Below, one piece after another: positions 16,262-29,150 of a stretch of 36,001 nucleotides of DNA. The position numbers were made by a program, and so were the translations under genes. This stretch comes from an uncultured Flavobacteriales bacterium (GTDB lineage: Bacteria > Bacteroidota > Bacteroidia > Flavobacteriales_D > Sanyastnellaceae), in the NCBI GenBank assembly GCA_913041135.1, contig CAJWIF010000010.1, forward strand, positions 1 through 36,001. The letters are read 5' to 3'. Every line of letters starts with the position of its first letter. Position 1 is the stretch's first letter. Under the pieces are notes generated by a model. That model was given only the letters and a program-made list of their open reading frames with translations. It was not told the origin of the DNA and did not search any database.

Positions 16262-18691
16262 TTACTTCACTGCTTTTTCGTGTAGCAAAGCGCGTTCAAT
16301 AACTTCACGGATGTGCTTAACAAATGTAAAGGTGAGTCCTTTGATATACCGGTCGTCAATTTCATCAATGTCTTGACGGTTCCGTTCGCATAAAATGATC
16401 TCTTTAATGCCTGCTCTCTTTGCCGCCAAAATCTTCTCTTGGATTCCTCCGACAGGCAAAACTTGGCCTCGAAGTGTGATCTCCCCAGTCATGGCCAACG
16501 CCTTGCGAACCTTTCGTTGTGTAAATGCAGATACCATTGCTGTGATCATGGTGATGCCGGCACTGGGGCCATCCTTTGGAATGGCACCTTGCGGAACATG
16601 CAAGTGGACGTTGCGTTCGTTCAATTCAGCGGCATTGAGTCCGATTGATTCAGCGTTTGACTTGATCCACTCCAAGGCAATGATGGCGCTCTCTTTCATG
16701 ACGTCTCCGAGATTTCCAGTGAGGGTCAATTTACCTTTTCCAACCGTCAAAGAGGTTTCGATAAATAAAATATCGCCTCCGTTGGGTGTCCATGCCAATC
16801 CTGTCACGACCCCTGCGACGTCGTTGCCTTGGTACTGGTCCTTCTTTCGCGATGGGCCGAGTATTTTAGGTAAATCTTTCGCTTTTACTTCAGCTTCGAA
16901 AGCTTCATCCAGCGCAATTTCTTTCGCTCGATTTCGAATGATTTTGGTGATGCGTTTGTCCAAACCACGCACGCCACTTTCATTGGTGTACTGCTCCACA
17001 ATCGCCTCTAGAGTAGCGACTGGAATTTTAATTTGCTCCCGGGTCAGACCGGTTTCCTTGATGTGCTTTGGAGCTAAATGACGTTTCCCGATTTGCACTT
17101 TTTCCTCGACGGTGTATCCCGTGACCTCAATGATTTCCATGCGGTCCCGCAAAGCGGGTTGAACCGAAGCAAGATTGTTACACGTTGCGATGAACATGAC
17201 CCGACTGAGGTCATAATCTAAATCGAGGTAGTTGTCGTGGAATGTGCTGTTTTGTTCAGGGTCCAAGACTTCCAACATGGCACTGGAAGGATCGCCATGA
17301 TGATCGCGCCCTAACTTGTCAATTTCATCCAAGACGAACAATGGGTTTGAGGTCCCCGCTTTCTTCAAATTCTGAAGAATACGACCGGGCATAGCGCCGA
17401 TGTATGTTTTGCGATGTCCGCGAATTTCTGCTTCATCGCGCATGCCTCCCAAACTCATCCGGACGTATTCTCGGTCGAGGGCTTTGGCGATGCTTTTTCC
17501 TAACGAAGTCTTTCCAACCCCAGGAGGGCCATAGAGACAGATAATAGGAGCTTTTAAGTCTCCCTTTATTTTAAGAACTGCAAGATGCTCGATGATGCGT
17601 TCTTTGACTTTTTCCAGGCCATAGTGATCTTCATCCAGCGTCTTTTGGGCATGGTGGAGGTCAAAGTTATCTTGTGAATTGGCGTCCCACGGGAGGTCCA
17701 ACATCAAGTCTACATAATTGGCTTGAACACTGTACTCGGCTGACTGCGAGTTCATGCGCTCCAACTTCAAGATCTCTTTGCCAAAGGCTTCTTTGGCGTG
17801 GTCAGGCCATTGCATGCTTTCAGCGCGCAACTTCCGTTCGGCAACTTCTTGTGCCTGCGGGTTGCTGCCCAGTTCTTCTTGAATTTGCTTCAATTGCTGG
17901 TTCAAGAAGTATTCGCGTTGCTGTTGGTCCAATTCGCCTTTGACCTTGGTTTGAATGTCCCGCTTCAAGGAAAGCATTTGCTTTTCTTTATGCAGCAATT
18001 CCAGTACCCGACTTGCGCGCGATTTAATGCCGGCAACCTCTAAAAGCGCTTGTTTTTCCTCTACAGGCGCGTTCATATTTGATCCGATGAAGTTGACCAA
18101 AAATGTCAGGCTTTCGATGCTTTTGATGGCAAACCCTGCTTCAGAAGGAATGTTGGGGCTGAGTTGAATGATTTCCAACGCAAGCTCTTTCAGGCTGTCC
18201 ATAAGGGCCTTGTGCTGGTCGTCTTTTGGCGGGAGATTTTCGGCGTCGTATTCAACGACACGTGCCTTCATGTAAGGCTCTTCTTGAACGATTTCCGTCC
18301 ATTTAAATCGTTTTTGACCTTGAAGAATCACCGTGTTTGAACCGTCGGGCATCCGAAGCATCTTGATCACTTTCGCGACAGTGCCGACTTCATTGAGATC
18401 TGTTCCCACAGGGATTTCAATGTCGTCGTTCTTTTGACTGACAACACCAATGCGCTGCTCGTTTTTATGCGCCTCTTTTATGAGGCGGATTGACCGGTCT
18501 CTACCTACGGTGATGGGAATGACAACTCCCGGAAAAAGGACAGTGTTGCGCAGGGAAAGTATAGGCAAGGCCTCAGGCACTTCCTCCTTTTGCATGGCTT
18601 CTTCATCTTCTGGTGAAATCAGGGGTATGAATTCGTGGTCTGGGGACTCTGACAACATCCAGGTCTCATCTTCTTGCGCTTCTTCAAACAT
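16262..18691 (-). CDS. lon: ATP-dependent protease La (Lon)
   Basis: An 809-aa cytosolic AAA+ serine protease that degrades misfolded and regulatory proteins. The N-terminal LON substrate domain starts around residue 40 (LPILSLRNTVLFPGV). A coiled-coil region with YFLNQQLKQIQEELG follows near 265. The AAA+ module has the Walker A GPPGVGKTSLGKS near 389 and Walker B FVLDEIDKLG. The C-terminal protease domain carries the catalytic serine in PKDGPSAG near 707 and the lysine in AAKRAGIKEI near 753, forming the Lon Ser-Lys dyad. Length is normal. The acidic N-terminal extension (first ~38 residues) is common in Bacteroidota. No -7 box is obvious directly upstream. porQ follows after 13 bp. Confidence 0.96.
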   Translation of the reverse strand: MFEEAQEDETWMLSESPDHEFIPLISPEDEEAMQKEEVPEALPILSLRNTVLFPGVVIPITVGRDRSIRLIKEAHKNEQRIGVVSQKNDDIEIPVGTDLNEVGTVAKVIKMLRMPDGSNTVILQGQKRFKWTEIVQEEPYMKARVVEYDAENLPPKDDQHKALMDSLKELALEIIQLSPNIPSEAGFAIKSIESLTFLVNFIGSNMNAPVEEKQALLEVAGIKSRASRVLELLHKEKQMLSLKRDIQTKVKGELDQQQREYFLNQQLKQIQEELGSNPQAQEVAERKLRAESMQWPDHAKEAFGKEILKLERMNSQSAEYSVQANYVDLMLDLPWDANSQDNFDLHHAQKTLDEDHYGLEKVKERIIEHLAVLKIKGDLKAPIICLYGPPGVGKTSLGKSIAKALDREYVRMSLGGMRDEAEIRGHRKTYIGAMPGRILQNLKKAGTSNPLFVLDEIDKLGRDHHGDPSSAMLEVLDPEQNSTFHDNYLDLDYDLSRVMFIATCNNLASVQPALRDRMEIIEVTGYTVEEKVQIGKRHLAPKHIKETGLTREQIKIPVATLEAIVEQYTNESGVRGLDKRITKIIRNRAKEIALDEAFEAEVKAKDLPKILGPSRKKDQYQGNDVAGVVTGLAWTPNGGDILFIETSLTVGKGKLTLTGNLGDVMKESAIIALEWIKSNAESIGLNAAELNERNVHLHVPQGAIPKDGPSAGITMITAMVSAFTQRKVRKALAMTGEITLRGQVLPVGGIQEKILAAKRAGIKEIILCERNRQDIDEIDDRYIKGLTFTFVKHIREVIERALLHEKAVK

Positions 18692-18768
18692 CTTCTAATC
18701 GTTTCAGTACTCCCTTTCAGTCAAACCCCGTGCCACTCGCATTTCAGACAATGTGTCAGGCAATCGTG

Positions 18769-19941
18769 TCACTTGAGCTCCTTTCGCAAAAAACTGGAAT
18801 TTTGAAATTCAAACAGCCAGCGTTTTGTATCCTCATCCTTCCACGTATGATGTCGGCGCTCCAAGACCATGGTCGCTGTCTCAACGAATCGTTCAAATTG
18901 ATGTTCCGACCAACTTTCATCTCCGCCCCATGAGAAAGAAGGCACGTGTTTTGGGACGATCGAATGGCCGACTAGAACGCACCCATTGCCCACGATGGTT
19001 CCCGTATTGAACATGGTGTTGATGGCGCACTTGCTGTGATCGCCCATGATCAAACCGCAAAACTGAAGGCCGGTCGGCTGCATGGATGAGCTAGCGGCAT
19101 CCCAAAGACGCACATCACTGTAGTTATTCTTAAGATTGCTGGTGTTGGAGTCGGCTCCCAAATTGCACCAATGTCCGATAACAGAATTCCCCAGAAATCC
19201 ATCGTGCCCCTTGTTGCTGTATCCCAAAAGTACACTGTTTGAAACTTCACCTCCGATTCGACAATGCGGGCCAATCGCAGTAGGACCATAAACCCGGCTT
19301 CCCATTTTAATAACGCTCTTCTCATCGAGAAGAAACGGGCCTCGAATATGCGAGCCTTCTTGAATTTCTGCATTTGGGCCGATGAAAATGGGGCCGCCTT
19401 CCGTATTCAAAGTGCTCGCGATAACCCGCGACCCAGGTGCCATAAAGACCTGCGCGGTATCGCCAATAACGGTTGTGTGTGTACCGTGCAAAGCGGCATT
19501 CCAAGATTCCGTCTTCCAATGCGTTTGAATCAAGGATGCCTGGGACTTCAAAGTCTTTCCGCAGTCAATGAAAAAGTCAGTAGGACGGGCAATCAAATGT
19601 GCCTCGCTAAACTCCATTGAATCCATTCGGCCGTCGGGTTCAAGCGGTTGGAAAAGCACAACTTCACCGCAGGTTAGCGACTGGCCAGATTTCAATTTGG
19701 ACAAAGTGGTCCATGCAGCTATGTCCGGCACCCAACGATCGTTGACCGCTCCATGTGCCACTATTTGTTGAACATATTGTGCGTTCTCCTGTTCAATTAA
19801 GGACGAAGCGTTCGAGGCGATTTCTTTCCACAGTTGTTCTAGTGTGAAAGCTCCCCATCGCATGTGTCCTTTTTGATGAGGAAATGTAAAAGGGTACAAT
19901 TGGTTCCAATGCTTGTCAGAGAAAAAGGTACATTGCATCAT
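18769..19941 (-). CDS. GlmU-family putative sugar-nucleotidyltransferase/acetyltransferase
   Basis: A 390-aa protein resembling the alternative GlmU family of Bacteroidota, proposed to make UDP-GlcNAc for peptidoglycan and outer-membrane glycans. The N-terminal part (LYPFTFPHQKGHMRWGAFTL) follows that family and lacks the classical GxGTRM nucleotidyltransferase loop. The C-terminal half is a left-handed beta-helix of hexapeptide repeats (PIFIGPNAEIQEGSHIRG, IGPHCRIGGEVSNSV). It contains the conserved stretch SNKGHDGFLGNSVIGHWCNL near residue 245. The start lies 4 nt after a perfect TACTTTTG box. It is divergent from the MerR gene (61 bp) and 77 bp upstream of lon. The exact reaction is inferred from family resemblance. 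Confidence 0.83.
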   Translation of the reverse strand: MMQCTFFSDKHWNQLYPFTFPHQKGHMRWGAFTLEQLWKEIASNASSLIEQENAQYVQQIVAHGAVNDRWVPDIAAWTTLSKLKSGQSLTCGEVVLFQPLEPDGRMDSMEFSEAHLIARPTDFFIDCGKTLKSQASLIQTHWKTESWNAALHGTHTTVIGDTAQVFMAPGSRVIASTLNTEGGPIFIGPNAEIQEGSHIRGPFLLDEKSVIKMGSRVYGPTAIGPHCRIGGEVSNSVLLGYSNKGHDGFLGNSVIGHWCNLGADSNTSNLKNNYSDVRLWDAASSSMQPTGLQFCGLIMGDHSKCAINTMFNTGTIVGNGCVLVGHSIVPKHVPSFSWGGDESWSEHQFERFVETATMVLERRHHTWKDEDTKRWLFEFQNSSFLRKELK

Positions 19942-19945
19942 ACCT

Positions 19946-19953
19946 CAAAAGTA
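19946..19953 (-). promoter_or_regulatory. TAnnTTTG -7 box of the GlmU-family gene
   Basis: The minus strand reads TACTTTTG, a perfect consensus match, exactly 4 nt before the ATG at 19941. The transcript would be leaderless or nearly so. No TTG at the expected -33 position is clear. Confidence 0.5.
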
Positions 19954-20002
19954 TGAAGCAAAAGAATGTTGATTTGACTGAAGAACCCACAATTGCGAAC
20001 GC

Positions 20003-20899
20003 ATGAAGAACGGAGGTGCGGCCCAACAATTTTCCATCAAAGATTTGGAGCACTTCACGGGAGTGAAAGCCCATACCATTAGGGTGTGGGAACAGCGGTA
20101 TGAGCTGCTCGATCCGAAACGAACGTCGACCAACATTCGACATTACTCCGGCGAGGACTTGAAGAAGTTGTTGAATGTGAGGTTTTTGATGGAAAACGGG
20201 TTCAAAATATCCAAGATAGCTGAGATGAAAGGGGCTGATCTTATCAGTCAAGTGGACCGAACGCAAGAGAGTCAAGGGCTTCAATCATCTATTTTTCATT
20301 CGCTGAAGCTGAGCATGCTTCACTACGATGAGGCCTTGTATCGTTCTGTCGTAGACGCCTACTCGGAGGAGCATGGTTTGGACCGTACCGTTTTGGATGT
20401 TTTTCTTCCATTTCTAGCACAAATAGGTGTGCTGTGGTTGACCAACTCCATTTGTCCGGCACAGGAGCACTTCATTAGTAATTTAATGCGGCAATCGCTG
20501 CAAGCCGGTGTGGATCGCTTGTCCGTTCATTCTGACGAAGATCAAGCTGTTGTTGTGTTGTTTTTGCCTGAGCGAGAAACCCATGATATTTCTCTGCTCT
20601 TTGTTCACTACTTGTGCATACTGAACGGGTACCAATCGATTTTTCTTGGTGCGAATGTGCCGTTTGAAGATTTGCTCAACGTAGCTGCTCAATTTCCCCA
20701 AGCCAAATTTGTCAGCTATTGTACGACGCATCCCTCTCCGTCGAATGCCCAGGATTATGTGCAAAAAGTTGAACGGCAATTTGTAGGCTCGTCGAACGAG
20801 TTTTATTTAGGAGGCAGGATGTTTGATGGCATAAAATCCACAACCAACGTGAAACTAGCGAAAGACGGTGGCTCTTTGGTCGGATTGCTTTTCTCCTGA
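20003..20899 (+). CDS. MerR-family regulator with CarH/LitR-type cobalamin-binding domain
   Basis: A 298-aa transcription factor. The MerR winged helix-turn-helix is at residues ~8-78 (FSIKDLEHFTGVKAHTIRVW, then the wing NIRHYSGEDL). Residues ~85-175 form a helical bundle containing W145, E155 and H156, an exact Wx9EH match to the adenosylcobalamin pocket of CarH/LitR photoreceptors. Residues ~180-298 are a B12-binding Rossmann-like domain with E192-T-H194, matching ExHxxG except that Ser replaces the last Gly; His194 would be the lower cobalt ligand. A GG pair (FYLGGRMF) lies near 270. Family members repress genes in the dark and release DNA when light breaks the Co-C bond. An ECF sigma factor follows on the same strand. 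B12 binding and light response are predictions. Confidence 0.87.
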   Translation: MKNGGAAQQFSIKDLEHFTGVKAHTIRVWEQRYELLDPKRTSTNIRHYSGEDLKKLLNVRFLMENGFKISKIAEMKGADLISQVDRTQESQGLQSSIFHSLKLSMLHYDEALYRSVVDAYSEEHGLDRTVLDVFLPFLAQIGVLWLTNSICPAQEHFISNLMRQSLQAGVDRLSVHSDEDQAVVVLFLPERETHDISLLFVHYLCILNGYQSIFLGANVPFEDLLNVAAQFPQAKFVSYCTTHPSPSNAQDYVQKVERQFVGSSNEFYLGGRMFDGIKSTTNVKLAKDGGSLVGLLFS

Positions 20900-20964
20900 A
20901 CTCCTCGCCTGGAGCGAGAATGACATAAATGTTTAATCATTTTATAAAAAAGTTGAACAAATTC

Positions 20965-20995
20965 TTGGCTAGAGGGATATTTTGTTTAATCTTTG
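20965..20995 (+). promoter_or_regulatory. candidate promoter of the ECF sigma gene
   Basis: TTG at 20965-20967 is followed after 20 bp by AATCTTTG (20988-20995), one mismatch from TAnnTTTG. The leader to the ATG would be about 20 nt. An overlapping alternative pairs TTG at 20953 with TATTTTG at 20978. The 120-bp gap after the MerR gene makes a separate promoter likely, but which box is used is unclear. A MerR or CarH-type operator might also lie here; none was identified. Confidence 0.33.
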
Positions 20996-21019
20996 CGTCA
21001 TAACGCTAAACAAAACGTC

Positions 21020-21526
21020 ATGAGCTCAATCGAATTTAACTCGCTTTTAGTAGGAAATCGCGACTTCCTAAAAGGGTTTGCACTTGGATTCACGCGTGAC
21101 CTGCAAGATGCTGAAGATTTGATTCAGGATACCATGGTGAAGGCATTGCGTTACAAAAACAACTTTAAGGAGGGCACCAACATCAAAGGCTGGTTGTACA
21201 CCATCATGCGCAACATTTTCATCAACAACTACAAGCGCAAGAAATTTCAGAATACCATTGTAGATACGACTGACAATCAATTCTTCATCAATTCGAGTAC
21301 ACAAATGCAGGCGGATACCGTGACGACTGTCATCAACGAGCAAGATATTCGTGATTCAATTGACGGTCTCAAGGACGAGTTTCGGGTTCCTTTTAATATG
21401 TTCGTTGAGGGGTATCATTATGATGAAATTGCGGAGGAATTGGGGATACCGATGGGCACTGTGAAGAGCCGGATTTTTCATGCTCGCAAAAAATTGGGTG
21501 CGCAACTGTCGGAATTTAGAAGTTAA
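21020..21526 (+). CDS. ECF-subfamily RNA polymerase sigma factor
   Basis: A 168-aa sigma-70 family protein. Region 2 covers roughly residues 15-85, with the LQDAEDLIQDTMVKAL core and the -10-binding segment GTNIKGWLYTIMRNIFINNY. Region 4 covers roughly 110-165 (DEFRVPFNMFVEGYHYDEIA, then the helix-turn-helix LGIPMGTVKSRIFHARKKL). Length fits the ECF group without C-terminal extension. The ATG at 21020 is preferred over a TTG at 20993. No anti-sigma factor gene is adjacent, which suggests control at the transcriptional level, possibly by the MerR/B12 protein 120 bp upstream. In Bacteroidota such MerR-sigma pairs often precede carotenoid genes; here a surface-protein gene follows instead. Confidence 0.92.
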   Translation: MSSIEFNSLLVGNRDFLKGFALGFTRDLQDAEDLIQDTMVKALRYKNNFKEGTNIKGWLYTIMRNIFINNYKRKKFQNTIVDTTDNQFFINSSTQMQADTVTTVINEQDIRDSIDGLKDEFRVPFNMFVEGYHYDEIAEELGIPMGTVKSRIFHARKKLGAQLSEFRS

Positions 21527-21613
21527 GAATAGTCTGTTAGGGAAGAAGCAACCCTTTGGAGGGCAAGAAAGTTGTAGGATTGTGTTATTATCGCGTACTG
21601 CAGTTCTTCAACA

Positions 21614-24600
21614 ATGCTCATTTCCATGACTCCATCCTTTGGTCGTTCATTATTGGTTCTTGTCTCAGTTGTGTTTCTATCTCATACTGCTTCGGCGCAG
21701 TTGCAGGTTGAATCCGGGTTGACATTGGAGGAGTATGTCAATGACATCTTACTTGGAAACGGTATTCAAGCGTTTAATATCAGTTATACTGGGGGGTCAA
21801 ATCAGCTAGGATACCTGACCAATGGCGAAGATTCATTCTCCATCAATTCTGGTCTCGTCCTCAGTAGTGATGTTTCTGACAACCTGGGTTGTCCTGAAAA
21901 TTTTGTTGCCTGTGACGGTTGTTTGGGGAATGGGTTCAACGACCCTGACCTGCTTGAAATTGCCAATTCTGTTCCTGGAATGATTGGAGAAAACTTCAAT
22001 GTTTCTTCTGTAAACGATGGGTGCGTTTTGGAATTTGATTTCATTGCTGCTGGAGACACAGTAAGTTTTGATTACGTGTTTGGTTCCGACGAGTACGAAA
22101 CGTGGATCAACACACAGTATAACGATGTATTTGCGTTTTTCTTGAGCGGACCGGGAATCACAGGTCCTTATGATAGCCCTGCGGGTTTCCCAAATGGTTC
22201 AGTAAACATAGCCGGCGTGCCGGATACTGACCCCATTTTACCGATTACAATTTCTTCGGTGAATTCAGGAACAAACTCAGAATATTACATAGACAATCAG
22301 GGAGGCGATGATGTCTGTATCAATGGGTATACAGTGCCATTCACAGCCATGTACGAGGTTGAATGTGGTGAGACGTACCACATCAAATTGGCGATTGCTG
22401 ATGGTAGTGATACGGCCTTGGAGTCTGTGGTTGTGCTCGAAGAGGGCTCGTTCCAATCCAATGCAGTGGTGCAGATTGATTTATCGATTGATGTGGGAGG
22501 TCCCGATGCCAATACCATTTATGAGGATTGTGGTCAGGCCATTTTGACTTTTGAGCGCCCGATTGAAACCATCTTGGAAATGCAAGAAATGGTGTATATC
22601 AACTATGGTAGTAGCACAGCGACCAACGGTGTAGACTATGGACAACCTCAAATGGATGGTTCCCTTTTACCCTTGCCCGATTCTGTTGTTTTTGAACCAT
22701 TCGTTAGCATCGTCTCCTTTGTTTTGACAGCTGATATTGATATGATTGATGAAGGTCCTGAGTTGGTTGAAATGCAGATAGAAAATGTTGCGGCTTGCAA
22801 CGGGGGCGGTTTGACGACGTATTTCTCCTTTTATGTGGCGGAGAACCCGCCGCCTTTCATTGTAGAAGGGTATGAAACGGAGATGTGCATTGGAGATTTC
22901 TTAGAAATTGCTCCGATTGTGGAAGGTGGGTACGGTAACTATACGTTTGAATGGCTTTGCAGTGGGGAAACATATTCGCCATTGACCATCTCTCCTACGG
23001 AAGATTACAGTTGTGAAATCATTGTTGGTGATACGTGTGGAATGCCTTCTCAAAATGTCGTCATTGACGTGACGGTGTTGGATTTCCCGCCACTAATTGC
23101 CTCGATTGATCAAGATCTCATTACCCTTGAATGCAATGGCATTCAGGATGTCACAACATCTGTTGAAGGAGGTGATTCATTTTATATGTATGAGTGGGAA
23201 GATGAGGATGGGGGTAACTTATTTCCTTCGTGGTTTGACCCCAGCATACTAAGTTTAAGCACTTGGGCAGGAGCGGAGGAAGTCTTTCTTACGGTTACAG
23301 ATGGATGCGGATTTGAAGCGACAGATAGTGTAGATGTGGAGTACAACATTCCTGAAATTGTGGTGGATGTCCCTTTGACTTTTGATGTGTTGTGCAATGA
23401 TCCTTTCTCAATAACCGCCTCTGCAACCGGAAGCGGTCCGTTCAATTACAATTGGCTAAACGGCAATACGTGGTTGAATTGGGGGCAGACTTTGAATTGG
23501 ACGACCAGCAGTGATCTGAATCTCACGTTAGAAGTGTCCGACGGCTGCGGACAAATTGAAGATGTTGAAATCGCCGTCGTCGTTGAGGCTCCTGACGTAG
23601 AATTCACATTGCCTCAAGGACTCATTGGTCCGTGTACAGAAGTGTTTGACATCGATTCTGATGTGACCAGCGGTTCAGGTGGCTATGTCTACAATTGGAG
23701 TCAAGATGGTGTGGCCTTGCCCGACAACGGCAGCACCATTGATTTGCAATCATTCGACACAACAACCATTTCATTGACAGTCAATGATGGGTGCGGTCAA
23801 AGTGCATCAGCGAATACCGTTGTGGTGATTGACAATCCTCCTTTAATCATTGAATTGGGCGCGGATCTGTATGCTAGTTGCATCGATAACACCGCCATTC
23901 CTATCGAGATAATCAGTGGAGCAGGAGCGTATGAGTATGCTTGGTTTGTGAGCGGAGAAGCCTATGACTTGGGTTCAAACATCGTGTTGCAGTCGTTTGG
24001 AACTGTGCCTGTGTTTGTCAATGTAGAAGACGGTTGTGGGGGTGTTGCTTCCGATTCACTCACATATCATATTCCGGACATTCCTTTGGACATTTCTGTG
24101 ACCCCGTCGACCATCATTTGTGCGGGAGATGGAATCTCTTTGGAAGCCTTGGCTTTGGGAGGAGAGGATGGTTTTGTTTATTACTGGCCAACGTTGGATT
24201 CATACGGACCAACCCAGTATATCACACCCGCGCAGTCGGCTACATACCCGGTCGTAGCTACGGATATTTGCGGAGACGTGATTGACACGTATTCAACGAT
24301 TGAGGTCCAATACTTGTTCAGTGATTTCGTGGTCAGTGCTTTAGAGACGGATGAGAACGCATACCAATTTCGAGCAACACCAACTCCGGCTGAACCCTAC
24401 GAAGGGGCATATGCCTATGATTGGGATTTCGGAGATGGTGCTCATTCGGATGAAGCGATTGCAGAACATACGTTTGATGGATTAAGCGACTATACCGTCT
24501 CATTGGAAATTATGAGTTTTGCAGGATGTGTGAACGAATCATTTACGGTTGTTCGCGGTCCAGTGCTGCTCTATGTCCCGACGGCTTTCACTCCCAACAA

Positions 24601-24841
24601 CGATGGAATCAATGATGCCTTTCAGGTCATAGGTAGTCAAATCATGAACTACGAGATATGGATCATGAACCGATGGGGGGAAATGGTTTTCCATAGTGAA
24701 TCATTGGATGAGGTGTGGTTGGGAGACATGCAGGGAGGTACCCATTTTTCGGAAAATGGTATTTACAATTGGGTCATTCGACTGAAGGGATTCAATACCG
24801 ATGCTGAAGAATTTTCTGGGACATTGCAATTGATGCGCTGA
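21614..24841 (+). CDS. secreted choice-of-anchor-L / Ig-PKD-repeat protein with type B T9SS sorting domain
   Basis: A 1075-aa cell-surface protein. The signal peptide ends near HTASAQ (residue ~29). Residues ~30-280 match the choice-of-anchor L domain (GLTLEEYVNDILLGNG, FDYVFGSDEYETW). A Calx-beta-like segment follows (~290-400). Residues ~410-890 hold tandem modules of about 80 aa, most ending in a DGCG or DxCG turn, near 474 (DTCG), 563, 643, 725, 806 and 883. A PKD domain (YDWDFGDG) lies near 937. The last ~85 residues (VPTAFTPNNDGINDAF, then the NRWGEMVF segment) are a CHU_C type B T9SS sorting domain. The role is probably adhesion or matrix, with no enzyme motif. It lies 87 bp after the sigma gene; its promoter was not identified. 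Confidence 0.88.
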   Translation: MLISMTPSFGRSLLVLVSVVFLSHTASAQLQVESGLTLEEYVNDILLGNGIQAFNISYTGGSNQLGYLTNGEDSFSINSGLVLSSDVSDNLGCPENFVACDGCLGNGFNDPDLLEIANSVPGMIGENFNVSSVNDGCVLEFDFIAAGDTVSFDYVFGSDEYETWINTQYNDVFAFFLSGPGITGPYDSPAGFPNGSVNIAGVPDTDPILPITISSVNSGTNSEYYIDNQGGDDVCINGYTVPFTAMYEVECGETYHIKLAIADGSDTALESVVVLEEGSFQSNAVVQIDLSIDVGGPDANTIYEDCGQAILTFERPIETILEMQEMVYINYGSSTATNGVDYGQPQMDGSLLPLPDSVVFEPFVSIVSFVLTADIDMIDEGPELVEMQIENVAACNGGGLTTYFSFYVAENPPPFIVEGYETEMCIGDFLEIAPIVEGGYGNYTFEWLCSGETYSPLTISPTEDYSCEIIVGDTCGMPSQNVVIDVTVLDFPPLIASIDQDLITLECNGIQDVTTSVEGGDSFYMYEWEDEDGGNLFPSWFDPSILSLSTWAGAEEVFLTVTDGCGFEATDSVDVEYNIPEIVVDVPLTFDVLCNDPFSITASATGSGPFNYNWLNGNTWLNWGQTLNWTTSSDLNLTLEVSDGCGQIEDVEIAVVVEAPDVEFTLPQGLIGPCTEVFDIDSDVTSGSGGYVYNWSQDGVALPDNGSTIDLQSFDTTTISLTVNDGCGQSASANTVVVIDNPPLIIELGADLYASCIDNTAIPIEIISGAGAYEYAWFVSGEAYDLGSNIVLQSFGTVPVFVNVEDGCGGVASDSLTYHIPDIPLDISVTPSTIICAGDGISLEALALGGEDGFVYYWPTLDSYGPTQYITPAQSATYPVVATDICGDVIDTYSTIEVQYLFSDFVVSALETDENAYQFRATPTPAEPYEGAYAYDWDFGDGAHSDEAIAEHTFDGLSDYTVSLEIMSFAGCVNESFTVVRGPVLLYVPTAFTPNNDGINDAFQVIGSQIMNYEIWIMNRWGEMVFHSESLDEVWLGDMQGGTHFSENGIYNWVIRLKGFNTDAEEFSGTLQLMR

Positions 24842-24935
24842 GCTGAAGACCTTTTTTGCAGTTTTGGAGCGGAAACCAAAGTCGATTGAGAGGAATTTGA
24901 CAGCGCTTGCTTAGCGATTGAAGCGTTCTTAAGTG

Positions 24936-24942
24936 TATTTTG
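24936..24942 (+). promoter_or_regulatory. candidate -7 box of the sugar transporter gene
   Basis: TATTTTG (TAnnTTTG lacking one T) stands 5 nt before the ATG at 24948. The 106-bp gap after the T9SS cargo gene holds no other clear signal; a short inverted pair (CGCTT/AAGCG) at 24904-24925 is too weak to call. Confidence 0.33.
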
Positions 24943-24947
24943 CACAC

Positions 24948-26273
24948 ATGAATGCACAGACCAAAGAATCGGGAGGTATTTCCTTAAGGGCTCCGTTTAT
25001 TATTGTAACCAGTTTGTTTTTTATGTGGGGATTCATCACTGTCATGGTGGATGCATTGATTCCCAGATTAAAAGATGTTTTTGAACTGACATTTCTGCAA
25101 GCAGGAATGGTTCAATTTGCATGGTTTGCAGCCTATGGCCTTATCAGCATTCCAGGAGGAAACCTCATCGAACGCATTGGCTACAAACGCGGAATTTTAA
25201 CCGGTTTGGGGCTTGCTTCTCTGGGCTGTTTGCTTTTTTCCCCCGCCGCTGCTACGAGAATGTATCCTTTGTTCCTGTTGGCGCTGTTCGTAGTAGCCGG
25301 AGGGATTACCATATTGCAAGTTGCTGCCAACCCGTACATCTCAGTATTGGGCTCCCCTGAAAAGGCGTCAAGTCGGTTGAATTTAGCACAGGCATTCAAT
25401 TCGTTGGGTACCACCATTGCTCCTATTGTAGCCGCGAGTTTCTTGTTGAGTGACAAGATCTTGAATTCAGACGAACAGAGTGCGCTAACGGAGTCAGCCT
25501 TGGACGCTTACCGTGCTGCTGAGGCTTCTGCTGTGCAAGGTCCATTCGTGGCTTTAGCAGTCGCTTTTGGTGTGCTGGCATTGCTGATGGGAATGAGTAA
25601 ACTGCCTCGTATTCTCGGGGGTTCTTCTCGAGGGGGATATGGAAAGGTTTTGCAAAACAAGCGCTTGGTATATGGAGCGATTGGCATCTTCGTTTATGTG
25701 GGAGCTGAGGTCGCTATCGGTTCGTACATGGTCAATTATGGTTTGGAGCTGGGAGTGGATCAAATCATCCGTGACAGTGCCGTGTTGTCATCCATGGCAT
25801 CACTTGCCGCGAGTATTGGAGGGAAGTCTTTGGCAGGAATGGACACCAAGGGGCTCATTGGAGCTTTGTTGACCTTCTATTGGGGAGGAGCCATGATTGG
25901 TCGATTCATAGGTTCAGCGGTCATGAACCGAATGGCGCCACAAAGGCTACTTGGATTTTTCGCTCTGTGTGCAGCAGCGATGACCATTCTGAGCGTCTCT
26001 AGCACGGGGGTAACAGCCTTGCTCGCACTTCTAAGTGTAGGGTTATTCAACAGCATTATGTTTCCGACCATTTTCACGTTGGGAATTAGTGAATTGGGAG
26101 ATTTGAAGCCGCTTGGAAGTGGGGTTCTGTGCACAGCAATCGTCGGGGGCGCCATCATTCCTCCAGCGGTGGGTGGGTTGGCTGATGAATTTGGCTTTTC
26201 GCTCGCTCTGATTTTACCCGTTTTATGCTACTTCTACATCCAGTATTACGCCATGCGCGTCGCACGGGACTGA
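24948..26273 (+). CDS. FucP-family (FHS) sugar:proton symporter, MFS
   Basis: A 441-aa, 12-helix inner-membrane transporter of the fucose/glucose/galactose:H+ symporter branch of the major facilitator superfamily. The first helix has FFMWGFITVMVDALIPRLKD, the typical FHS opening. LIERIGYKRGILTGL near residue 78 is the loop 2-3 MFS motif, and the central stretch ILQVAANPYISVLGSPEKAS near 127, with AQAFNSLGTTIAP, is characteristic of this family. The ATG at 24948 is preferred over a GTG 15 nt upstream because of the box spacing. It stands alone between the T9SS cargo and the small basic protein and is followed by an AT-rich hairpin. Which sugar it carries cannot be told; no sugar catabolic gene is adjacent. 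Confidence 0.88.
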   Translation: MNAQTKESGGISLRAPFIIVTSLFFMWGFITVMVDALIPRLKDVFELTFLQAGMVQFAWFAAYGLISIPGGNLIERIGYKRGILTGLGLASLGCLLFSPAAATRMYPLFLLALFVVAGGITILQVAANPYISVLGSPEKASSRLNLAQAFNSLGTTIAPIVAASFLLSDKILNSDEQSALTESALDAYRAAEASAVQGPFVALAVAFGVLALLMGMSKLPRILGGSSRGGYGKVLQNKRLVYGAIGIFVYVGAEVAIGSYMVNYGLELGVDQIIRDSAVLSSMASLAASIGGKSLAGMDTKGLIGALLTFYWGGAMIGRFIGSAVMNRMAPQRLLGFFALCAAAMTILSVSSTGVTALLALLSVGLFNSIMFPTIFTLGISELGDLKPLGSGVLCTAIVGGAIIPPAVGGLADEFGFSLALILPVLCYFYIQYYAMRVARD

Positions 26274-26293
26274 ATTTTGAGCCGATGTGCACA

Positions 26294-26325
26294 AATTTCC
26301 TTAAGAAAAGGAAATTCTTTTTGCA
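26294..26325 (+). terminator. candidate rho-independent terminator after the sugar transporter
   Basis: A 9-bp perfect stem (AATTTCCTT / AAGGAAATT, loop AAGAA) is followed by CTTTTTG, 20 bp after the transporter stop. The stem is AT-rich, so it is weaker than the terminator at 26598. The short flanking repeats TGCAC/GTGCA may extend the fold. Confidence 0.5.
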
Positions 26326-26410
26326 CTTAGTCAACAAATTAAACTGTTTTGGTGTTCTTTAGCCGAAGCAACTGAGTCGAATCCTCGATTCACGGAGAAT
26401 ATAGATTGTT

Positions 26411-26554
26411 ATGGCTCGAAAAAAGCGAGAGAAAGAATTGCAACCCAATATTAAAGTTCGTCTTGACCGACGAACGGTGATCACTGTGCGTGACCACGAT
26501 AAATTGGCGTTTTGGAAAGAGAAGTATCCTTTGTTGGAAATTATTGAAGAATAA
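26411..26554 (+). CDS. small basic protein, 47 aa, unknown
   Basis: An intact 47-codon reading frame begins MARKKREKELQPNIKVRLD and ends with an acidic tail KYPLLEIIEE. It has a lysine/arginine-rich N-terminal half, a short beta-like segment (RTVITVRD) and an aromatic FWKEKYP turn. I do not recognise the family. The case for a real gene is its position: it is isolated in a 373-bp gap, with one hairpin upstream and a strong terminator 43 bp downstream. Its composition looks like a nucleic-acid-binding small protein, but that is only a guess. No TAnnTTTG box sits close to its ATG, so it would have a conventional leader within 26330-26410. Confidence 0.55.
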   Translation: MARKKREKELQPNIKVRLDRRTVITVRDHDKLAFWKEKYPLLEIIEE

Positions 26555-26597
26555 TTAAAGCGTGTTGTAGCAACTGGTTTGCTATACTATTTCGCAT

Positions 26598-26629
26598 AAA
26601 AAAGCCGGCCTATATGGGCCGGCTTTTTT
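26598..26629. terminator. strong bidirectional rho-independent terminator
   Basis: A 13-bp perfect stem, AAAAAAGCCGGCC and its complement, encloses the 6-nt loop TATATG. The A-run on one side and T-run on the other let it work in both directions. It separates the plus-strand 47-aa gene from the minus-strand winged-helix-like gene, which ends 17 bp further on, so it can serve both convergent units. Confidence 0.9.
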
Positions 26630-26646
26630 GATGCCTTATGTTTTGG

Positions 26647-26916
26647 TTAGGCAACTTCCTCCTTTTTCCATGGTGCAAAAGCAAGTTGCTCGCGTCCTTT
26701 CTTCGTCAAGGCGTAGCCGTTCTTGTTTTGAACCATTCCATCGAGGTACAAATTGGTAATACGCTCACCGATTCGAGCTTGGCCAACGCTGAGGTCGGTG
26801 TCGGCTTCAATGCGCTTCCAAAAATTGCGTTCGAGCACGGCCAATCGGATGTGGGCTTGCTGCTCTTGCTTGTATGTATGGACAATGTCCAAAACCATAA
26901 AATCGTATTTATCCAT
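26647..26916 (-). CDS. small winged-helix-like protein, unknown
   Basis: An 89-aa protein starting MDKYDFMVLDIVHTYKQEQQ. Predicted helices are followed by VGQARIGERITNLYLDGMVQ and a strand-turn-strand NKNGYALTKKGREQL, which looks like the recognition helix and wing of a PadR/MarR-like winged helix. It could be a small DNA-binding regulator, but I cannot name the family. The ATG at 26916 is chosen because the in-frame sequence further upstream is of different composition and reads as non-coding. A TACTTTG box lies 39 nt upstream. The gene converges on the 47-aa gene across a strong terminator. Confidence 0.62.
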   Translation of the reverse strand: MDKYDFMVLDIVHTYKQEQQAHIRLAVLERNFWKRIEADTDLSVGQARIGERITNLYLDGMVQNKNGYALTKKGREQLAFAPWKKEEVA

Positions 26917-27176
26917 CTGAAAGGCTTGTAGGGTGATAGTTGATTGTCGTGTGTGCAAAGTACCCGACGGTTTCGACTTCTGGGCTACAATTGTTACATG
27001 AAATATGAACGAATTGTTAACGAGTGCACGGCCTTTGTTGGAAACTTGTGAATTGCGAATTCCTGAGGACTTTAATGGGATTGCAACCATCTTTAAACCA
27101 GCGGTGTAGCTGACTTTTAGTTTGCGTAGTCATTGCCACTTGGATTCGATCGATCTCCGATAAGAAGGGCCGACGC
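26917..27176. other. 260-bp intergenic region
   Basis: The gap between the winged-helix-like gene and the aat 3' end contains a candidate -7 box TACTTTG on the minus strand (26956-26962) for the downstream small gene. It also holds plus-strand TACAATTG at 26986-26993, 4 nt before an ATG that opens only 17 codons. A 34-codon plus-strand frame (27005-27109) is present without further support. No hairpin terminator or RNA gene was recognised. Confidence 0.4.
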
Positions 27177-27890
27177 CTACCCGATGGGATCGATTTCAGG
27201 ACTCCAGGTGCCCTTGATGGTTGCATGCTTCTTCAAGTAAATATCCAAAATTTCCATGTAATGTGTCCGCTCAATTTCCCGAGCTCCGAGTGTCGCCAAA
27301 TGTGGGTTCTGAACTTGACAATCGATGGGGCCAAAACCACGCTTTTTCGCCCACTGTACTAAATGAATAAATGCGACCTTCGAGGCGTTGTTCATGAGAG
27401 AAAACATACTTTCTCCGAAAAACATGCGCCCAATCGAAATGCCATAAAGCCCGCCGACAAGCTCGCCGTTGTGCCATGTTTCGACAGAATGAGCGAGGCC
27501 GAGTCGATGAAGCGCAACATAGGCTTCTGTAATTTCCTCTGAAATCCAGGTGCCTTCCCCTTCTCTGCGGATGTCTCCACACGCGCGCACGACCTGTTCG
27601 AAACACGTATCCATGCGGATTTCAAAAAGCCCGCGATTGAGAATGTTTCGCATGCTTTTTGAAACATTCAGTTCATCCAAATGAAGAATGGACCGTTTCT
27701 CTGGGGCCCACCAAAGAATCGGATCTTCTTCGCCGTACCAAGGGAATACGCCCGCTTCATACGCTGCAATCAGACGTGCTTCGGACAAATCTCCTCCGAC
27801 AGCCAGAAGTCCTTCCCACGATTCGTGAAGCGGGGGGAAGGAGAGGTCATCGGTCAAGAGAGCGATGCGAGGTTGGTTGGATTCAGTCAC
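27177..27890 (-). CDS. aat: leucyl/phenylalanyl-tRNA--protein transferase
   Basis: A 237-aa cytosolic enzyme that adds Leu or Phe from aminoacyl-tRNA to N-terminal Arg/Lys of proteins, marking them for ClpS/ClpAP degradation (N-degron pathway). Hallmarks are the N-terminal LSFPPLHESWEGLLAVGGDL, then AGVFPWYGEEDPILWW, GTWISEEITEAYVALHRLG, and the core VGGLYGISIGRMFFGESMFS near residue 160. I choose the GTG at 27890 (MTESNQPRIALL). It places the conserved FPP motif at the usual distance and leaves 59 bp to the divergent Nudix gene, whereas longer frames run into that gene. TGAATTTG, one mismatch from consensus, lies 6 nt upstream. Confidence 0.9.
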   Translation of the reverse strand: MTESNQPRIALLTDDLSFPPLHESWEGLLAVGGDLSEARLIAAYEAGVFPWYGEEDPILWWAPEKRSILHLDELNVSKSMRNILNRGLFEIRMDTCFEQVVRACGDIRREGEGTWISEEITEAYVALHRLGLAHSVETWHNGELVGGLYGISIGRMFFGESMFSLMNNASKVAFIHLVQWAKKRGFGPIDCQVQNPHLATLGAREIERTHYMEILDIYLKKHATIKGTWSPEIDPIG

Positions 27891-27896
27891 GCGGTA

Positions 27897-27904
27897 CAAA
27901 TTCA
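27897..27904 (-). promoter_or_regulatory. candidate -7 box of aat
   Basis: The minus strand reads TGAATTTG, one mismatch from TAnnTTTG, 6 nt before the GTG start at 27890. It faces away from the matching box of the divergent Nudix gene. Confidence 0.33.
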
Positions 27905-27937
27905 AAATCGAAGGTACCGCTAACAAGGGAATTGTGT

Positions 27938-27945
27938 GACCTTTG
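27938..27945 (+). promoter_or_regulatory. candidate -7 box of the Nudix gene
   Basis: GACCTTTG, one mismatch from TAnnTTTG, lies exactly 4 nt before the ATG at 27950, the spacing shown by the perfect boxes in this window. Confidence 0.35.
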
Positions 27946-27949
27946 TTGC

Positions 27950-28615
27950 ATGAAGGAGTTAGGGCATGATTTGCGGATCGCATTGCTTGAAAGTATTGAG
28001 GTGAATGGCCTGTTGGCGGCATCCAATGCCGAGCATGCCATGCCATTTACGAGGCCATCTCGTGCCATGGCTGAGCAAAAGGGGGTCGAAATACGACTTG
28101 CTGCGGTGCTTTTGACTATTTACCCCAGGCAGGGGTCGTGGCATGCTTTACTGATGCAGCGGACGAAATACCCCGGAGTGCACAGCGGTCAAGTTTCCAT
28201 TCCTGGTGGAGAACGAGAGGCGGTGGACGCAAACTTGATGGAGACGGCCAGAAGAGAATTCGAAGAGGAGGTGGGAATAGCCATCCCTTCAGAAATCATA
28301 TTTGGCCCACTATCCGAACGCTTCATTCCTCCCAGTCGTTTTGCCGTATCTCCTTATCTAGCCATTCTATCACAACGTCCACAGTGGAACATCGACCCCA
28401 TAGAAGTCGACTCAATTATTGAGTTTAAAGTGGATAGCTTATTGACTGACCTGGCCATGCGTCCCGTTAAAATGGAGGTGTCTCCAGGGCTGTTTCATCT
28501 CATGCCGGCTTATCCCATTCAAGGAAATGAAGTCTGGGGTGCGACGGCATTGATTTTAACGGAATTCATGGAACATTGGAAACAACTTCCAGAAGCGACG
28601 CGCAGCATGCAGTAA
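27950..28615 (+). CDS. Nudix hydrolase, CoA pyrophosphatase-like
   Basis: A 221-aa cytosolic protein. The Nudix box core TARREFEEEVGI near residues 104-115 gives the metal-binding REFEEE signature. Just before it, LLMQRTKYPGVHSGQVSIPG matches the segment that marks the CoA-pyrophosphatase (NudL/UPF0035) subfamily, with Ile in place of the usual Phe before PGG. Members hydrolyse CoA or acyl-CoA to 3',5'-ADP and (acyl-)phosphopantetheine. The ATG at 27950 is chosen by the 4-nt box spacing and because an upstream in-frame extension overlaps aat on the other strand. The HEAT-like gene follows 28 bp later with its own box. Confidence 0.86.
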   Translation: MKELGHDLRIALLESIEVNGLLAASNAEHAMPFTRPSRAMAEQKGVEIRLAAVLLTIYPRQGSWHALLMQRTKYPGVHSGQVSIPGGEREAVDANLMETARREFEEEVGIAIPSEIIFGPLSERFIPPSRFAVSPYLAILSQRPQWNIDPIEVDSIIEFKVDSLLTDLAMRPVKMEVSPGLFHLMPAYPIQGNEVWGATALILTEFMEHWKQLPEATRSMQ

Positions 28616-28631
28616 GCGTTATTCTCTACCT

Positions 28632-28639
28632 TAAATTTG
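28632..28639 (+). promoter_or_regulatory. TAnnTTTG -7 box of the HEAT-like gene
   Basis: TAAATTTG is a perfect consensus match, 4 nt before the ATG at 28644. It implies a separate, leaderless transcript despite the short 28-bp gap after the Nudix gene. No clear -33 TTG was found. Confidence 0.5.
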
Positions 28640-28643
28640 CGGC

Positions 28644-29150
28644 ATGAATGGCATTTCAGCACTTTTCTCAGCAAAGGAGTCCGAAGTTCTCGCAGCGCTT
28701 GAGGAAGCAAAAGAATCAGGGGATATCCAATGGGTGCGTCCTTTGATGGAAGTATTTCGGGATCATCCAGCAGATGCTGTTCGTAGCGAAGTGGCATCGA
28801 TGTTAAGTGCATTGAAAATCTCGGCGGCATCCGATGTCTTTGCCGATGCGCTGGAAGACCCTGAATTTCAAACAATTTATGCAGACATACTCGGATTCAT
28901 GTGGAGTTCTGGGTTTGTTCCCGAGGAGTCCTTACGAAGGGTTGCAAACTGCGCTGTAGATGGTGACTTTCGCACAGTTGTTGAAGCGCTCACATGGATT
29001 GAAGAATTGGAAAATGTGCACGATGAGAACCAATTGATGGACTCCATCCTGCTGATTCGAGGAGCCCTTGAAGACGGCAAAAATCCCGATGCGAAAGGGC
29101 TTTACGAAGCCATGCTTTCGACGCTGTTGTCTTTAGAGCGAGAGCAGTAG
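28644..29150 (+). CDS. HEAT-repeat-like protein, unknown function
   Basis: A 168-aa, almost entirely helical, acidic protein without signal peptide or membrane segment. Repeating helical pairs such as DIQWVRPLMEVFRDHPADAV followed by VRSEVASMLSAL resemble HEAT/armadillo repeats, which act as protein-binding scaffolds. No catalytic motif is visible and the partner is unknown. It ends 1 bp before the convergent carboxylase gene, leaving no room for a terminator between them. Confidence 0.65.
   Translation: MNGISALFSAKESEVLAALEEAKESGDIQWVRPLMEVFRDHPADAVRSEVASMLSALKISAASDVFADALEDPEFQTIYADILGFMWSSGFVPEESLRRVANCAVDGDFRTVVEALTWIEELENVHDENQLMDSILLIRGALEDGKNPDAKGLYEAMLSTLLSLEREQ

Follow-up and report, generated by a model that had tools for sequence, protein, structure and literature searches.

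The window analyzed here is a stretch of 36,001 nucleotides (positions 1 to 36,001 of contig CAJWIF010000010.1, assembly GCA_913041135.1) from an uncultured Flavobacteriales bacterium of the Sanyastnellaceae, and this report concerns two consecutive genes on its plus strand, encoding a MerR-type regulator (20003..20899) and an extracytoplasmic function (ECF) sigma factor (21020..21526). The two genes probably form a two-step light switch, in which a photoreceptor-repressor of the CarH/LitR type and a dedicated ECF sigma factor govern carotenoid synthesis. The proposal is built on sequence, namely on the cofactor pocket, the predicted fold, a double operator and its near-uniqueness in the genome, a carotenoid (crt) cluster, a conserved element in front of crtI, and the occurrence of the operator dyad at crtI in relatives without the sigma gene. 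In darkness, adenosylcobalamin (AdoCbl) would be bound by the MerR protein, with His194 below the cobalt and Trp145, Glu155 and His156 capping the adenosyl group. The AdoCbl-bound protein would oligomerize and sit on two dyads of 30 bp each, spaced by five helical turns; with the candidate -7 region of the sigma promoter covered by the proximal dyad, the sigma gene would be kept off. Light would break the Co-C bond, the MerR protein would leave the DNA, and the sigma factor would be made; it would then direct an unlinked cluster, running from crtI to a lycopene cyclase gene, whose promoter, TGAACA-N15-TTGTT, would stand immediately before crtI.

The MerR protein has 298 amino acids counted from an ATG start and was characterized by its open reading frame (ORF), Pfam and PDB sequence matches, an AlphaFold2 model and residue conservation. 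A winged helix-turn-helix domain (residues 10-75) is followed by a four-helix cap with W145 and E155-H156 and by a Rossmann B12 domain with E192-x-H194-x-x-S197. MerR_1 (PF13411) and B12-binding_2 (PF02607) are matched above the Pfam cut-off. The closest solved structures by sequence are the Thermus CarH/LitR chains 3whp_A (E 5e-17) and 5c8d_A (E 6e-17), and in the PDB sequence alignment W145, E155, H156, E192 and H194 fall on the W, EH and ExH pocket positions of CarH. A preliminary description of the window had singled out an exact Wx9EH motif (W145, E155, H156) and an ExH motif (E192, H194), and had named an alignment as the place where the assignment could fail; each motif has a single match in the protein (Wx9EH starting at 145, ExHxxG/S at 192 with Ser at 197), and the alignment does put His194 and Wx9EH in the pocket. 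The structure prediction that it had also proposed agrees: the AlphaFold2 model, calculated from 22 aligned sequences, has a pLDDT of 87.5, and its top Foldseek match is CarH (E 1.5e-14), with a Z of 17-18 in VIA. The predicted B12 part overlays Thermus CarH chain 5c8a_C at 2.2 Å over 191 residues with about 20% identity. Overlays that include the DNA-binding domain have a root-mean-square deviation of about 9 Å or more, probably because that domain is set at a different angle.

The MerR protein was matched at E 1e-10 or better in 250 of the 299 genomes sampled; the pocket residues were checked in two sets of 89 and 60 sequences, not across all 250 matched genomes. The larger set goes back to 140 proteins, which were reduced to 121 by removing five short sequences and duplicates and then thinned to less than 90% mutual identity; part of it was found with six search peptides, one of which (ICPAQEHF) holds EH and so favors sequences that keep it. 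The smaller set, picked without a motif pattern, consists of the window protein and 59 loci from the survey of genomes for MerR matches. Regarding the 89 relatives, W145, E155 and H194 are present in all, H156 in 87 (Arg in two) and E192 in 86 (Asp in three). Regarding the 60 sequences, W145, E155 and H194 are again present in all and H156 in 58. The Ser197 that the preliminary description had noted at the final Gly of ExHxxG is normal for the relatives (Ser in 47, Gly in 40, Pro in two of the 89), and the idea that it disables cobalt binding was rejected because Ser is the commonest residue there. With respect to the longer motif ExHx2G-x41-SxV/T-x22-27-GG, the protein has ExH, Ser197 for Gly, and GG at 270-271 with a longer spacing; Ser238 comes one residue too early for the x41 spacing, and YC follows it in place of the xV/T pattern. 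MerR proteins 98% and 94% identical to it are found in Flavobacteriales metagenome-assembled genomes. That the protein works like CarH/LitR is well supported as a family assignment; AdoCbl binding and a light response are predicted.

The sigma factor has 168 amino acids counted from the ATG at 21020, the start common to its relatives (ORF, Pfam and locus comparison); the listed ORF begins at a TTG at 20993. It matches PF04542 (sigma-2) and PF08281 (sigma-4) above the Pfam cut-off. Its position after the MerR gene on the same strand and the lack of an adjacent anti-sigma gene are as first described, no anti-sigma domain being found by Pfam among nine proteins scanned from 16262 to 29150. The sigma start lies at most 200 bp from the end of the MerR gene in 19 of 20 family loci, the exception being one locus with about 620 bp (L053).

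Two operator dyads, neither assigned to a strand, lie in the gap between the genes. The upstream one (20930..20959) reads TGTTTA-N18-TGAACA and has 11 of 12 consensus positions; the proximal one (20983..21012), identified by genome scan and locus comparison, reads TGTTTA-N18-TAAACA and has 12 of 12. They are 53 bp apart. The half-sites TGTTTA/TAAACA are inverted and spaced 24 bp start to start, and pairs of dyads are mostly 53 bp apart. The operator search suggested earlier for the regions upstream of 20003 and 21020 thus found both of its sites before 21020; before 20003 there was none at up to one mismatch. All 47 MerR-ECF loci, a set in which close relatives were kept, have at least one dyad with 10 or more of the 12 positions, and 37 of these loci have a pair 52-55 bp apart (exactly 53 bp in 29 of the 37). 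Outside the MerR-sigma gaps, 36 dyads scoring 10 or more occurred in 571 kb. In the organism's own genome, the dyad with up to one mismatch occurs at seven places, two of them in this gap; the other five compare with six for a reversed-pattern control, and only the two gap dyads stand out in the genome.

A TTG between the dyads (20965..20967, plus strand), with the same phase in 27 of the 47 loci, is the candidate -33 element of the sigma promoter, a name in use for Bacteroidota promoters. The candidate -7 element AATCTTTG (20988..20995, plus strand) lies inside the proximal dyad, where it is strongly conserved, and deviates by one mismatch from the consensus TAnnTTTG. The segment TAATCTTTG of the proximal dyad, which includes the candidate -7 element, is also conserved across the 47 loci. 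An exact TAnnTTTG was expected at the start of the proximal dyad (first 16 nt) and was found in one of the 47 loci, and for this reason the sigma promoter is a candidate only. A sigma-70 scan yielded nothing useful.

The direction of control that we infer from this layout is repression. The opposite sign is unlikely; a light-activated MerR protein would then promote transcription of the sigma gene, as Streptomyces LitR does, and the dyads would help the polymerase to bind. Activated LitR is reported to promote transcription from the litS promoter, with sigma-LitS directing crtE (PMC12705666), and MerR-family proteins are described as repressing or activating (PMC8156234). However, the proximal dyad lies on the candidate -7 region and not on the spacer, which suits blocking, and the AdoCbl-bound CarH of Thermus, Bacillus and Myxococcus is described as a repressor (PMC8156234).

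The most likely regulated target, reached through the sigma factor, is a crt operon unlinked to the MerR-sigma pair. The preliminary description had surmised an unlinked regulon, and a crt cluster with a conserved sigma-type element before crtI was indeed found on another contig (C17), in the order crtI-crtB-(unknown)-idi-crtD-cruF-crtZ-lycopene cyclase. CrtI matches NF058655 with 686 bits, over the cut-off. The presumed CrtB belongs to the squalene/phytoene-synthase family (PF00494 over the cut-off) and reaches no NCBIfam CrtB cut-off. Idi and CrtD are over their NCBIfam cut-offs, the CruF-type protein matches PF04240 and the lycopene cyclase PF18916. The crtZ gene, an ORF without a Pfam match, is presumably correctly named, to judge from its histidine motifs and from homology to genes in other crt clusters. 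In another member of the Bacteroidota, Chryseobacterium lacus, light-induced carotenoids and crt transcripts are reported (PMC7064467).

The element TGAACA-N15-TTGTT stands directly before crtI and is exact in all six genomes of the genus for which crtI loci were returned. In the organism's own genome, 8 nt separate its end from the start annotated for crtI, and the crtI message would therefore be leaderless or nearly so. The wider survey started from 55 crtI-bearing genomes and 51 loci (G119, G164, G221 and G275 were left out), of which 50 regions were scored after G215 was dropped; G092 was counted as sigma-bearing, since its sigma gene, without a match in the sigma search, runs off the contig in L057. 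When the sequence found in the genus served as the motif for the family beyond it, 10 or more of the 11 positions were present in 15 of 38 sigma-bearing genomes, and 9 or more in 24. For all sigma-bearing genomes the figures are 21 and 30 of 44, whereas 0.4% and 4.3% of shuffles reach these scores, so that the element is far above chance. Genome-wide, the element with up to one mismatch occurs at 67 places versus 40 for the reversed control, and 24 of the 28 such loci examined (of 30 returned) lie inside open frames of 80 amino acids or more. Exact copies number four, one of them the crtI element; the other exact copies that recur in the genus resemble conserved coding sequence in their third-position changes, as assessed by eye. 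The sigma factor would recognize the crtI element, and crtI is the only sigma target claimed; a few further targets may exist. A MerR dyad scoring 10 or more of 12 lies at crtI in four sigma-bearing genomes, in loci L283 (G182), L297 (G092), L288 (G193) and L128 (G027). The presence of both the crtI element and the dyad in G092 suggests double control there.

Several observations weigh against the proposed light switch. The Rossmann part of the MerR protein is below the cut-off of Pfam PF02310. The best NCBIfam model, CarH (NF052513), gives 90.9 bits, far under its equivalog cut-off of 400, and the protein falls outside CarH as this model narrowly defines it. The position of His132 in Thermus thermophilus CarH (TtCarH) is occupied here by Leu146, the residue after the Trp, and none of the 89 relatives has His at this position. 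In Thermus, His132 is reported to become the upper cobalt ligand after light, and TtCarH H132A to be mostly tetrameric in the light in one study, which notes an earlier report of disassembly (PMC10442372). These last points would favor a MerR protein that responds to B12 status, or like CarA works without B12, and gives no light response, its pocket serving for cofactor sensing or only for oligomerization; the first Gly of the GG motif also varies, being Gly in 15 of the 89 relatives (the window protein keeps GG). We hold this to be hardly probable, because at least 87 of 89 sequences, and at least 58 of the 60 chosen with no motif pattern, retain Wx9EH and the His that would bind cobalt, because CarA, which is B12-independent, is described as being without Wx9EH (PMC8156234), and because the likely target is a photoprotection pathway.

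Other points on the same side concern the DNA motifs. No 11-bp direct repeats like those of the Thermus/Bacillus operators were seen by eye in the dyad consensus, to which this reading was confined. The crtI element scores below 10 in 23 of the 44 sigma-bearing genomes and below 9 in 14. At 10 or more it occurs in one of six sigma-less genomes, which compared with the sigma-bearing genomes gives a one-sided Fisher P of 0.16; at 9 or more the sigma-less figure is again one of six and P is 0.024, without correction for ancestry, and the contrast is weak. The sole sigma-less genome at 9 or more (G083) is also without a MerR match, perhaps owing to an assembly gap. The MerR dyad at crtI was found in two of the six sigma-less genomes (G086 with 12 of 12, G213 with 11 of 12) versus four of the 44 sigma-bearing ones (P 0.15; 2.1% of shuffles reach the dyad score), and three of the six have neither motif at crtI. 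The family sequences had, moreover, been inspected by eye before the crtI motif was fixed. The pattern of motifs at crtI is compatible with a swap between direct MerR control and the sigma relay.

The same comparisons bear on whether TGAACA-N15-TTGTT could be a second type of MerR site with outward half-sites, through which the MerR protein would control the crt genes directly while the sigma factor does something else. TGAACA and TGTT do look like TnnACA, the half-site of MerR, and its complement, and sigma-bearing genomes differ only weakly from sigma-less ones, as stated for a score of 10. Such a second site is nevertheless improbable, since the element is rarer where the sigma gene is missing (the contrast at a score of 9) and since it is the inward 30-bp dyad that is seen where the MerR gene sits directly before crtI. 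Among MerR-crtI loci without a sigma gene, read by eye, the dyad before crtI is exact in L060, L064 and L072, has 11 of 12 positions in L059 and L086 (the latter also scored in the crtI survey) and is absent from L056. A GAAC -35 box, furthermore, is usual in ECF promoters.

As first described, the next gene encodes a surface protein with a type IX secretion system (T9SS) signal, a large CHU_C protein with PKD (21614-24841), confirmed by Pfam. The accompanying suggestion that light might control the cell surface through it found no support and was rejected: the gene is a conserved neighbor, and the gap before it holds no MerR operator in the genome scan (up to one mismatch) and no TGAACA-N15-TTGTT by eye (21527-21613). 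Read-through of a light-induced sigma-T9SS operon is very improbable, although the T9SS gene lies 87 bp beyond the sigma gene with the same orientation, in an order kept in the genus loci and with no terminator found on that strand by a simple scan, because the gap widens to about 270-920 bp in three of six loci from other genera and because crt genes follow instead in other families.

Gene order was compared across the order in 20 loci, 19 from other families and one (L057) from the same family. Seven of the 19 other-family loci have the order MerR-ECF-crt (L061, L062, L065, L067, L068, L069, L075), in agreement with the earlier statement that such pairs precede carotenoid genes in other Bacteroidota; five have MerR-crtI without a sigma gene (L056, L059, L060, L064, L072), one has MerR-ECF without crt (L063) and six have neither neighbor. 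Because the MerR(-ECF) genes are joined to crt in these other families, the window, with its crt genes elsewhere, probably shows in rearranged form a carotenoid cluster that is common in Bacteroidota. In L066, L070, L071 and L074 the MerR protein keeps the Trp, the EH and the cobalt His, with Asp for Glu192 in L066 and L074; no sigma or crt gene is near, and no dyad is present in the 200-260 bp printed on each side. A 12/12 dyad is found 38-42 bp before the MerR match in four of 14 Pedobacter-type loci (L267, L272, L273, L275). No description of a Bacteroidota CarH operator or of a MerR-ECF-crt arrangement was found in the literature searched, although one may already have been published.

It is possible, if tentative, that these loci represent a widespread Bacteroidota branch of B12 photoreceptors, which would have no bis-histidine switch, a double-dyad operator of 83 bp whose spacing is fixed at five turns and, in part of the order, an ECF relay that allows the carotenoid operon to sit elsewhere; sigma-bearing and some sigma-less genomes would then have two interchangeable wirings of one sensor. 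With 250 of 299 genomes having a MerR match, B12-based light-gated carotenoid synthesis may be common in the order. The lack of a His132 counterpart in 89 of 89 relatives makes it testable whether the light-release mechanism of Thermus is general or special. For the window itself, what began as a guess from motifs becomes a concrete circuit whose parts, namely a pair of operator sites, a promoter element and a target at an unlinked place, are all testable at the bench.

Upstream, the order Lon - GlmU-like - (divergent) MerR - sigma is kept across the family (window 16262-20899, relatives L036-L055). Identity of the GlmU-like protein drops to about 35-40% in family loci where that of Lon stays at about 70%, so that this GlmU-type enzyme evolves fast. 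Elsewhere in the genome, a Cob_adeno_trans protein and B12-binding proteins (C14, C51) make up an AdoCbl economy and render cofactor supply plausible; no cobalamin riboswitch was found in the genome. A rhodopsin gene (C79) and three matches to PF03441 (C75, C106, C118) suggest that the organism deals with light. Photolyase and rhodopsin genes were rejected as further targets, as neither the operator nor the crtI element is present at the readable starts (C75, C118, C79), the piece on C106 beginning at a contig end and thus having its start outside this check; partial motif matches in these loci lie inside genes or on the other strand. On C118 (L166), the photolyase-family ORF adjoins a second photolyase-like frame, and neither light motif was found there; we take the ORF to be cry-DASH-like, the second frame FeS-BCP-like and a nearby frame a SulP-like transporter. 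The fragments on C106 and C75 (L163, L164) are two closely similar but distinct photolyase pieces at contig ends, judged by eye, and a strain mixture in the assembly is possible.

LitS of Streptomyces is reportedly an ECF factor, going by the title of a reference. The MerR-sigma pair resembles the Streptomyces LitR-LitS-crtE system, in which a B12-based MerR photoreceptor is described as working with this sigma factor, which drives transcription from a carotenoid promoter (PMC12705666). This likeness, noted in the preliminary description, holds as an analogy of layout, and the sign of control may or may not be shared; the pair differs in that the crt cluster is unlinked here and that the phylum is another. 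Regarding the operator, only the side found here, with its paired dyads of 30 bp, enters this comparison. With Thermus thermophilus CarH (5c8a, 5c8d, 5c8e) the MerR protein shares domain order, pocket residues and the predicted fold of the B12 domain, and it differs in its identity of only about 20%, in Leu146 for His132, in Ser197 for Gly and in having a sigma gene as its target. The half-site core TnnACA is common to the known CarH operators as described (PMC8156234, PMC9304148), but those of Thermus and Bacillus are reported to consist of three or four tandem 11-bp direct repeats (PMC8156234, PMC9304148), whereas inverted dyads 53 bp apart are found here. The CarH/CarA system of Myxococcus xanthus is similar in that carotenogenesis is described there as repressed in an AdoCbl-dependent way, at a large operator with multiple sites (PMC8156234); there, however, the ECF factor CarQ acts in a separate pathway with the anti-sigma factor CarR, whereas here a single MerR-sigma pair has no adjacent anti-sigma gene. 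Within the Bacteroidota, the pair is comparable to MerR-headed clusters, in which MerR is followed by crtI or crtB in 14 of 14 Pedobacter-type loci (L265-L273, L275-L279), and a MerR gene is reported at the head of the Nonlabens spongiae carotenoid cluster (PMC11855829). Unlike here, no sigma gene was found between MerR and crt in clusters of the Pedobacter/Nonlabens type, and control would act directly on a MerR-crt operon. B12 light switches and a relay of the LitR-LitS kind are known already, and what sets this variant apart from the Thermus model is the operator architecture and the missing light-state His.

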